Of a stretch of DNA of 62,400 nucleotides, positions 9,319 to 11,439 are shown piece by piece (positions within the stretch are counted from its first letter, which is position 1; every line of letters starts with the position of its first letter). The stretch comes from a virus. The translations under genes and the position numbers were made by a program. The stretch lies in IMG/VR virus record IMGVR_UViG_3300009071_000009, positions 1 through 62,400 of that record; one strand, written 5' to 3'. Under the pieces are notes generated by a model, which did no database searches, was not told where the DNA came from, and saw only the letters and a program-made list of their open reading frames with translations.

Positions 9319-9554
9319 TGACACCTTGGATTCAAGAAACCCGCAATGGCTTTGTAATGGCCGCGGACGAAGTCGCTCGCGTTCACGCTGAGATTGCTCA
9401 AGGTGAGCAATCGATTGCTGTCCAGATAGATATGAAAAAGTGGAGTGAGAAAGCCGGAATGTGGCCTAATGCTGAGTACAAAAATATAATTAAAGCTCAT
9501 GCTGAATCTCGTGGTTGGACGCAGGAAGGGTTTACTGGAATGGAGATACTGTAA
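9318..9554 (+). CDS. Hypothetical protein, 78 aa
   Basis: ATG overlaps the previous TAA, and GGAGGAAG ends about nine bases upstream. A Trp-rich soluble protein (PWIQETRNGF, KKWSEKAGMW, SRGWTQEGF). No known family comes to mind. Its stop again overlaps the following start, so three genes form one coupled unit. Confidence 0.7.
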   Translation: MTPWIQETRNGFVMAADEVARVHAEIAQGEQSIAVQIDMKKWSEKAGMWPNAEYKNIIKAHAESRGWTQEGFTGMEIL

Positions 9555-9793
9555 TGGATTCGATTGTAGATCCTTATATGGATGACATTATTGTAACTGA
9601 AAAGCTGCCGCGGCACGGTGGTCCTCAAGATCGTGGTGGCGCTGATGCATACTATCACCGGCCTTATGATCCTCACTACTATGTTGGTGGTTCAATGCAA
9701 TCTGAACGTGTTGAGAAAGACAACATGACTGTTGGTGAAATTGAGGCTTATAAGTATGGTTATGAAAATGAAGTTGATAGAAAAGAGTGGTGA
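9554..9793 (+). CDS. Conserved phage hypothetical protein, 79 aa
   Basis: I chose ATG 9554 because it overlaps the preceding TAA in the same way as the neighbouring junctions; a longer form from 9515 would lie within that gene. The middle (YYHRPYDPHYYVGGS) is rich in His, Tyr and Pro, and the end (MTVGEIEAYKYGYEN) resembles a tail I have seen in other T4-like phage small proteins. Function unknown. Confidence 0.68.
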   Translation: MDSIVDPYMDDIIVTEKLPRHGGPQDRGGADAYYHRPYDPHYYVGGSMQSERVEKDNMTVGEIEAYKYGYENEVDRKEW

Positions 9794-9930
9794 TTGAAAT
9801 TACAGGTATACTCCTTGACCGAGTTGAGAAGCGTGTATTTGATAATGTACTAGACGCTATAGAATTTAGAGACATTCTTGATGCTCATTACGCAAAAGTA
9901 ATATGGACACAGTACTATGTTTACGATTGA
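9790..9930 (+). CDS. Small hypothetical protein, 46 aa (GTG start)
   Basis: A GTG overlaps the previous stop (GTGA). The frame encodes IEITGILLDRVEKRVFDNVLDAIEFRDILDAHYAKVIWTQYYVYD and overlaps the next start by 14 bases. Amphipathic and helical, without a known family. It fills what would otherwise be an empty 120-base gap in a gene-dense operon, which supports it. Confidence 0.5.
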   Translation: MIEITGILLDRVEKRVFDNVLDAIEFRDILDAHYAKVIWTQYYVYD

Positions 9931-10425: not shown

Positions 10426-10670
10426 TGGAAATCGCAAATACTCAAGTTGAACGTCTTGCTCTTATCAAGAAAATCGCTAACCGCAAGAAAAAACTTGCAG
10501 AGGTCAAATCTAAAACTCGTAAAATGCGTGCTCCTAAAGTTGATCGTTCTTTTATGAACATCCCTAAAGAGTCTAACATGTATCAGTGGACTGATGCTTC
10601 TAAATATGCTAAAGAGTATTATGGTGAAACATTGCACTATACAACTAAATTTGACAATGACTGGGATTAA
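10425..10670 (+). CDS. Small basic hypothetical protein, 81 aa
   Basis: The N-terminal half is a basic helix (KKIANRKKKLAEVKSKTRKMRAPK); the C-terminal half is acidic and aromatic (YQWTDASKYAKEYYGETLHY). Could bind nucleic acid, but no family is recognised. It starts on the previous stop after AAGGAG and overlaps the next gene by 14 bases. Confidence 0.65.
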   Translation: MEIANTQVERLALIKKIANRKKKLAEVKSKTRKMRAPKVDRSFMNIPKESNMYQWTDASKYAKEYYGETLHYTTKFDNDWD

Positions 10671-10929
10671 TCAAGAAATTCGTAATAGGATTCGTCTTTC
10701 TGTCGCAGCTTATGCTTATGAGATGGAAGACAATCCTATTATGGGTGATTATGAGTTTGACGAATTATCCAAGACTATCAATCCTGCTGAAAAAACTGGT
10801 AATAGAAAAATGGATAATTTTTTCAAAAAACATTTCAATCCTGACACCGGTATGTGGATCCGTTTTCATCCTGAGAGGCAGAAAATAAAATGGATTTATG
10901 ATACATATTATAAAAATAAATGCAAATAA
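10657..10929 (+). CDS. Conserved phage protein resembling DNA-ligase domain Ia, 90 aa
   Basis: I chose ATG 10657; a longer form would overlap the preceding gene by 77 bases. RLSVAAYAYEMEDNPIMGDYEFDELSKTI resembles the NAD-ligase N-terminal Ia motif (YxYxxDxPxxxDxEYDxL). The following MDNFFKKHFNPDTGMWI is a signature I recognise from widespread phage hypotheticals. Too short to be a ligase and lacking a nucleotidyltransferase domain, so it is probably a stand-alone fold of unknown role. The last gene of its operon. Confidence 0.75.
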   Translation: MTGINQEIRNRIRLSVAAYAYEMEDNPIMGDYEFDELSKTINPAEKTGNRKMDNFFKKHFNPDTGMWIRFHPERQKIKWIYDTYYKNKCK

Positions 10930-10953
10930 AATGAAAATAATGCATTTTAGGGG

Positions 10954-10982
10954 TGTACAATCGGTTTAAACTATGGTAGTAT
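10954..10982 (+). promoter_or_regulatory. Extended -10 promoter of the structured leader
   Basis: TGTACA (10954-10959), 17-nt spacer, TATGGTAGTAT ending at 10982. Transcription should begin near 10989, which puts the structured RNA at the very 5' end of the transcript. Confidence 0.75.
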
Positions 10983-10988
10983 AATTTA

Positions 10989-11229
10989 TCAAATGGGGAA
11001 AAGGAGACTCTTTTAATCAACGTCCGTGTAGAGGGAACCGGACCTAGAAGCACTTGGAAGAAATCGACTTACAAATGACGACGGTGCTATCTAACAATCG
11101 TATTAGATAGTAAATATAGCGAAACTAGTAAGTTAGATCCAATTGGTTTCAATCAAACTAGAGCGGCAATGTCAATAAGGCCGTGCGGAGAGATTGGAGA
11201 TACTAGGGGCGTTGATTTAAGGAGTTTTT
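10989..11229 (+). ncRNA. Highly structured ~240-nt leader RNA sequestering the downstream ribosome-binding site
   Basis: This stretch has no convincing gene, although the surrounding genes are packed end to end. Bases 11003-11025 pair with 11207-11229 as a closing helix of 23 positions: 22 pairs, five of them G-U, and one U-U mismatch. The 3' strand contains AAGGAG (11219-11224), the ribosome-binding site of the gene at 11233. Inside, GTGCTATCTA (11084-11093) can pair either with TAGAAGCAC (11045-11053; 9 bp, one bulge) or with 11103-11112 (10 bp with an 8-nt loop). Further hairpins are 11143-11149/11155-11161 and 11063-11067-independent CGGC/GCCG at 11164-11167/11180-11183. This is the form of a cis-regulatory RNA or a compact ncRNA; I cannot assign a class. 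Confidence 0.7.
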
Positions 11230-11232
11230 ATT

Positions 11233-11439
11233 ATGAGAACTGTACACTATGTTGGTATGAGCGAGGCTCGTTATGAGGCAGCCCGCAGGGTCTTCGGTGG
11301 TCCTGCTTACTATCACAAATATATGGACGCTAGAGTCTATAGTGAAGTTGGTGATAGTGATGTTGTTATTGTAGGTGATGCTAGAATGCAACCATATGTA
11401 TGGGATGCATCTGCAGTTGATAGGGAATATACAGAATGA
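11233..11439 (+). CDS. Conserved T4-like phage hypothetical protein, 68 aa
   Basis: The sequence RTVHYVGMSEARYEAARRVFGGPAYYHKYMDAR ... SDVVIVGDA is a pattern I recognise from small proteins in many T4-like phages, probably an alpha/beta fold. Function unknown. Its ribosome-binding site AAGGAG at 11219-11224 lies in the closing helix of the leader RNA, so translation should depend on opening that helix. It overlaps the next gene by 4 bases. Confidence 0.8.
   Translation: MRTVHYVGMSEARYEAARRVFGGPAYYHKYMDARVYSEVGDSDVVIVGDARMQPYVWDASAVDREYTE

Follow-up and report, generated by a model that had tools for sequence, protein, structure and literature searches.

A previously uncatalogued structured RNA of T4-like marine phages with a putative self-pairing loop

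The viral DNA analysed here (the window, 62,400 nucleotides) carries at positions 11007-11225 an element that is rather likely to belong to a new single-copy family of phage noncoding RNAs, excised at its closing helix (P1) and homodimeric. Comparison of the relatives shows a conserved fold, a defined strand, independence of genomic context, a self-complementary loop and a single copy in the records searched. As judged from these sequences, the family, referred to as family A, is a previously uncatalogued and strongly conserved structured RNA of T4-like marine phages; the family is new, but it belongs to a known kind, that of structured phage noncoding RNAs bearing the signature of a kissing loop. 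The features of the window copy are as follows.

10954-10959, + strand: TGTACA, nearest -35-like hexamer, with a 20-nt spacer to TATAAT
10980-10985, + strand: TATAAT, -10-like hexamer, read directly
11007-11225, + strand: the conserved RNA of family A in full; matched by covariance model R2 over its full length (model positions 1-148) at 123.1 bits, E 5e-36
11007-11025, + strand: P1 5' strand, ACTCTTTTAATCAACGTCC, pairs with 11207-11225
11026-11053, + strand: P2 hairpin, GTGT 11026-11029 with GCAC 11050-11053, inner A-U and G-C pairs
11038-11041, + strand: CCGG loop tetranucleotide, proposed symmetric kissing loop; self-complementary columns in 75/75 members
11055-11142, + strand: P3 region, variable peripheral hairpin, from the alignments
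11143-11206, + strand: P4 long hairpin, 5' strand 11143-11154, 3' strand 11192-11206
11207-11225, + strand: P1 3' strand, GGGCGTTGATTTAAGGAGT, closing-helix partner of 11007-11025
11219-11224, + strand: AAGGAG, ribosome-binding site, inside P1 and 8 nt before ATG 11233
11233-11439, + strand: downstream gene, 68 aa, MRTVHYVGMSEARYEAARR..., with its ribosome-binding site in P1

The window copy and its relatives

The first-pass annotation had described this region as a promoter followed by a leader RNA whose 23-position closing helix hides a ribosome-binding site. Exact pairing of 11003-11025 with 11207-11229 gives the helix as claimed, with 17 Watson-Crick pairs, five G-U pairs and one U-U mismatch, the last being found again in many relatives. 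It is also beyond chance: taking the best helix between both 50-nt ends of each copy, none of 2000 mononucleotide shuffles reached 23 positions with one mismatch, and the shuffle maximum was 19. The outermost four pairs (11003-11006/11226-11229; G-U, G-U, A-U, G-U) are weak and lie beyond the conserved family model. Against dinucleotide shuffles, the transcribed strand folds with a z-score of -4.15 and the opposite strand with -1.61. The AAGGAG of gene 11233 was likewise found inside the 3' strand of the helix, with a pairing probability of 0.72-1.0 per base. The promoter was upheld in part, as its -10 hexamer is good, but the nearest -35-like hexamer stands at 20-nt spacing, whereas the usual spacer is 16-18 nt, and a consensus promoter scan of the window did not list TATAAT 10980-10985 owing to this spacer length; a promoter at 10954-10985 is for that reason only plausible. 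A seven-codon open reading frame (ATG GGG AAA AGG AGA CTC TTT TAA) occupies 10993-11016, with its stop within the P1 5' strand.

Gene 11233 encodes a 68-aa product for which no Pfam or PHROGs match was found; its relatives led to 73 IMG/VR loci. The same RNA core lies upstream of many of them, its middle being variable and its outer arms different, and a scan with a core pattern gave 88 viral-contig stretches. Thirty short members were aligned with MAFFT without fitting to structure (alignment A1), and the model R2 was made from the RNAalifold consensus of A1 with one variable hairpin added by us; the window sequence was not among these 30. Seventy-five full-length members were recognised by R2, and no second credible copy was found in the window. 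A further alignment, A3, comprises 60 distinct rows fitted to R2. Family-A RNAs are about 130-220 nt long, the shortest whole RNA measuring 134 nt with P1 included.

The annotation could place the element in no known class, and this was borne out by Rfam. Across 4227 families, tRNAs alone exceeded the gathering threshold in the window, and a permissive search (E<10) of 10900-11300 returned as its best match noise at 9.1 bits, where the cut-off is 167. A scan of ten related loci gave nothing besides tRNA. BLAST with the window and L010 elements against cultured phages returned nothing credible, and R2 did not match phages C48C1, Melnitz-3 or HTVC008M. Candidate host or prophage copies were discarded, as the 19 pattern matches in bacterial genomes are due to chance, only the P4 tip, from which the pattern was taken, being matched.

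The window encodes a T4-type gp32 (PF08804), which is nearest to Kyanoviridae phages at 52-58% identity, together with baseplate and tail genes; gp32 is present in 11 of 18 related records. The related contig L079 carries at 9451-9844 a permuted tmRNA of alphaproteobacterial type (RF04321 and RF01849 above cut-off; ARAGORN tag ANDNVAPSGYALAA), which suggests an alphaproteobacterial host. Close to the element, a 111-aa open reading frame (10594-10929) matches PF22745, the N-terminal NAD+-binding subdomain of NAD-dependent DNA ligase, above cut-off, and the rest of the ligase is missing from this frame.

Fold, covariation and the P2 loop

One fold is common to the members of family A, consisting of the closing helix P1, the hairpin P2, the variable hairpin P3 and the long conserved hairpin P4, with folding z-scores from -3.7 to -7.0. 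The covariation of the closing helix, on which the first-pass proposal turned, is very strong: P1 has 19-20 pairs, and double changes occur in 10 of 20 pairs among the 60 distinct members. Such changes are also seen in three of the four outer pairs of P2, which carries a conserved GAGG..CCU (GAGG..CCUAAA), and in all five pairs of P3, a hairpin ranging in relatives from zero to about 90 nt and among the longest in the window. P4 contains near-invariant internal loops, a 3-nt bulge (11199-11201) and a 12-nt terminal loop (11168-11179), and its pairing is kept in 99-100% of cells by pair counts on the RNAalifold consensus. Our first hand model had placed a pseudoknot in this part (a P4 loop strand, CAAUC/GAUUG, in a 7-bp hairpin); it was abandoned, since the nested P4 covers the same complementarity.

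Over the whole of A3, 98.2% of cells are paired and 25 pairs show double changes, compared with 12.9 +/- 1.7 in shuffles; sliding the partners by 1-3 columns lowers the pairing to 40-48%. Alignment A1 gives the same picture, with 98.3% of cells paired and 16 pairs with double changes. The invariance of ACT...AGT at the P1 ends comes partly from our trimming and was excluded as evidence. Base-pair cells hold 454 G-U against 18 A-C combinations, which argues for selection on the RNA of this strand and not on a DNA palindrome. Taken with the fold, these counts show conservation at the RNA rather than the DNA level, in a four-helix junction. The 1-nt insertions and deletions inside conserved parts of A1 argue against a conserved protein reading frame, which would have spoken against a structured RNA.

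The tetranucleotide in the P2 loop (positions 34-37) is GGCC in 30 members, GATC in 27, CCGG in 12, GTAC in four, and GGCT and TCGG in one each. All 75 loops are self-complementary when G-U is allowed, GGCT and TCGG being wobble forms, and no other stretch of the alignment has six variants that are all self-complementary. At least about 20 loop switches are counted on a tree of the rest of the core, a tree that is poorly resolved and likely affected by recombination, which makes the independent number uncertain. Within a single chain, adjacent loop bases are unable to pair with one another, so the loop speaks for base pairing from one molecule to another, and a family-A RNA probably binds a further copy of itself. 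A cryo-EM study of GOLLD, ROOL and OLE has made the same argument from palindrome switches, including GGCC to GAUC for the OLE kissing loop (PMC12286853). In the distant RNA of L053, which has a different core (core B), the P2 loop is not self-complementary, which counts against the dimer reading.

Genomic contexts and the possible role of the RNA

Among 23 records searched whole (33-275 kb for those with the element), 19 hold exactly one family-A copy and four hold none; this suggests one copy per genome, as seen in partial genomes, since most contigs are fragments. The element is intergenic in the contexts read, and its flanks cluster into 28 upstream and 23 downstream groups, giving at least 23 gene contexts. 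The cores of the window and of L109 are 100% identical in unrelated flanks, and their P1 arms differ at several positions on both sides with pairing kept. L010 and L039 have outer arms in common, and L039 has there only a bare hairpin, CTCTTTTCTGCAGAAAGGAG; at another gene the element is present in L049 and absent from L053. Identical cores in unrelated flanks, together with such empty sites, indicate that the core moves or is lost as a unit. A search for a further empty site through relatives of the gene after L109 returned the L109 contig alone.

The downstream side is equally varied. Relatives of gene 11233 often, not always, lie 3' of the RNA, and the genes downstream differ between contexts. 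In 27 of 60 distinct contexts an AGGAG lies in the P1 3' strand just before a start codon (among these the contig ends there in one, and the frame is short in one), and the P1 5' strand is then usually ACTCTTTT, matching AGGAG. The ribosome-binding site is absent from P1 in the other 33. Nine of these copies are followed at 4-7 nt by a tRNA gene (L075, L079, L081, L083, L097, L109, L128, L151 and L161), while others have a promoter-like sequence or another RNA on their 3' side; in L117 the RNA precedes a bidirectional terminator and then, on the opposite strand, a 443-aa gene that is capsid-like as judged from sequence. Hiding a ribosome-binding site therefore cannot be the conserved role. Among the options left by the annotation, the compact noncoding RNA is supported, and the claim of a leader that serves to hide the site applies locally but not throughout the family.

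Short hairpins (GAGTC..GACTC, GAGTT..AACTC, GAGTTA..TAACTC) occur upstream of P1 in L004, L009, L022, L068, L108, L152 and others; P1 starts with their 3' arm, and they are commoner where P1 has a ribosome-binding site. They may provide an alternative pairing or act as weak terminators.

A cis-acting leader, in which P1 sequesters the ribosome-binding site until a ligand, a protein or an upstream ribosome opens it, is an unlikely account of the family as a whole, yet several observations fit it. The site is paired in the window; AGGAG just before ATG is accompanied by a matching P1 5' strand in the 27 contexts; a stop codon lies within 20 nt upstream of P1 in 19 of 26 contexts with the site (the nearest upstream stop of the window copy is 77 nt from P1); and the competing upstream hairpins are longer in this class, with a mean score of 5.7 compared with 3.9 where P1 lacks the site. 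Moreover, a coreless P1-type hairpin, CTCTTTTCTGCAGAAAGGAGT, persists with its ribosome-binding site before a relative of gene 11233 in L039 (649-670) and L040. The larger class lacking the site, however, with many of its copies leading to a tRNA, promoter, terminator or other RNA, speaks against a leader, as do the differing genes downstream, no constant regulated gene following the element, and the near-invariance of P4 and not of P1. In the window, the ribosome-binding site is paired and the competing upstream hairpin is weak, and in the predicted fold the site stays covered when the P1 5' arm alone is deleted.

The mobility of the core could also reflect a non-autonomous, MITE-like element with P1 as its terminal inverted repeats, which the identical cores in unrelated places, the number of contexts and the presence or absence at one gene (L049 and L053; L010 and L039) would suit. 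We regard this as very improbable, because no record holds more than one copy, selection acts on G-U pairs and internal helices, the P1 arms are fitted to their site rather than fixed, and ordinary phage recombination explains the moves; no consistent target duplication was seen, and a GGAG duplication noticed around some copies is not a constant feature. Equally remote is a self-splicing or self-cleaving ribozyme, or the RNA of an RNA-guided nuclease (group I intron, HEARO/IsrB type). The precise absence of the core at the bare hairpin of L039/L040 and the variable genomic place agree with it, but no credible Rfam match was obtained at E<10 or at gathering thresholds, and the element is as short as 134 nt. 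For a group I intron it is too short and lies between genes, and P4 as an intron core was dropped as too short and unmatched. No HEARO or omega RNA model matched, and in every untruncated copy the 5' part is found no further than 260 nt from the core, which leaves no gene inside the element.

The preferred reading, an excised and dimeric noncoding RNA, would work as follows. The RNA would be transcribed together with adjacent phage genes or tRNAs, and the long P1 may be a processing stem, cut by host RNase III or an enzyme of that kind to release the RNA, as the length of the helix would allow. Two molecules would then be joined through the P2 loop, and in the infected cell the RNA or its dimer would act in trans, the near-invariant P4 being the putative functional part. 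An effect in cis appears secondary and local, as the window and about half of the contexts suggest: closed P1 would hold back translation of gene 11233, and a terminating upstream ribosome or cleavage would open it. More tentatively, we propose an RNA-only homodimer or larger assembly in marine T4-like phages, in which modular cores A, B and C with a common processing stem form an interchangeable trans-acting set.

Few families of structured noncoding RNA are known from large lytic marine phages, abundant as these are. A single-copy, strongly constrained RNA kept amid changing gene neighbours points to a role in infection, and its palindromic loop makes dimerisation directly testable on about 130 nt, GOLLD and ROOL being far harder to handle. 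The presence of one outer stem on different RNA cores suggests a general phage route to embed and excise RNAs in dense operons.

Comparison with known RNAs and neighbouring elements

As far as tested, the known RNAs that family A resembles are analogues and not relatives. GOLLD and ROOL are structured RNAs of phages and prophages whose function is unknown; they are often near tRNA genes and multimerise partly by symmetric kissing loops, and the L21a kissing loop of GOLLD is backed by palindrome-to-palindrome covariation (PMC12286853). Family A is also a phage RNA, at times adjacent to a tRNA, with the covariation signature of a kissing loop and oligomers predicted from its sequence. However, GOLLD and ROOL are far larger (many GOLLD exceed 800 nt, against 130-220 nt) and form 8- or 14-mers, and their family models gave no match in the Rfam scans, sequence and fold being unrelated. 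Loop L9.3 of OLE switches among palindromic tetranucleotides, including GGCC and GAUC, as P2 of family A does (PMC12286853), whereas OLE is bacterial, larger and protein-binding, with no relation in sequence or fold by Rfam. Species 1 and 2 of phage T4 (rnaC and rnaD; 139 and 119 nt) are small stable RNAs of a T4-type phage adjoining tRNA genes, but their predicted folds are unlike family A, and R2 with filters off gave no credible match to them in the T4 tRNA region. The pRNA of phi29 is likewise small and phage-encoded, has a closing helix and forms multimers through loop-loop pairing; in pRNA two different loops pair, and it serves the phi29-type packaging motor, whereas family A has one self-complementary loop and occurs in T4-like phages. 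Riboswitches and sequestering leaders share with the window copy the ribosome-binding site held in a helix, but family A is tied to no gene or regulon, and about half of its contexts lack that site.

Further RNA-like elements were observed in these contigs. Family B comprises elements of 88-109 nt (L043:4808-4901; L085:421-529, - strand; L053:714-801; and L088, - strand, directly after the family-A copy), which share with family A the outer sequence of P1 and a hairpin of GAGG..CCUAAA type, lack P4 and have z-scores from -3.2 to -6.6. Family C (L060:1593-1713; L111:10340-10461, - strand; L036:303-412), present in 17 IMG/VR stretches, has a closing stem similar to P1, the core AACCCGUAAAAUCCUGGUNAGGGNCU and inner palindromes GCUAGC or CCAUGG. 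P1-like stems on cores B and C would be expected of a common processing stem. Family D (L010:890-1056 and about 30 other loci) is a structured RNA of about 167 nt (z -3.8), GGUACCGAAUGGAAACCC..., whose end is a strong hairpin resembling a terminator. Family E is a structured RNA, CCCACACGAAGG...GCCGGGGCGGGGGGCGUG, that lies directly before a family-A copy in L086 (8879-9005) and in L157 (near 3054), with a z-score of -3.4.
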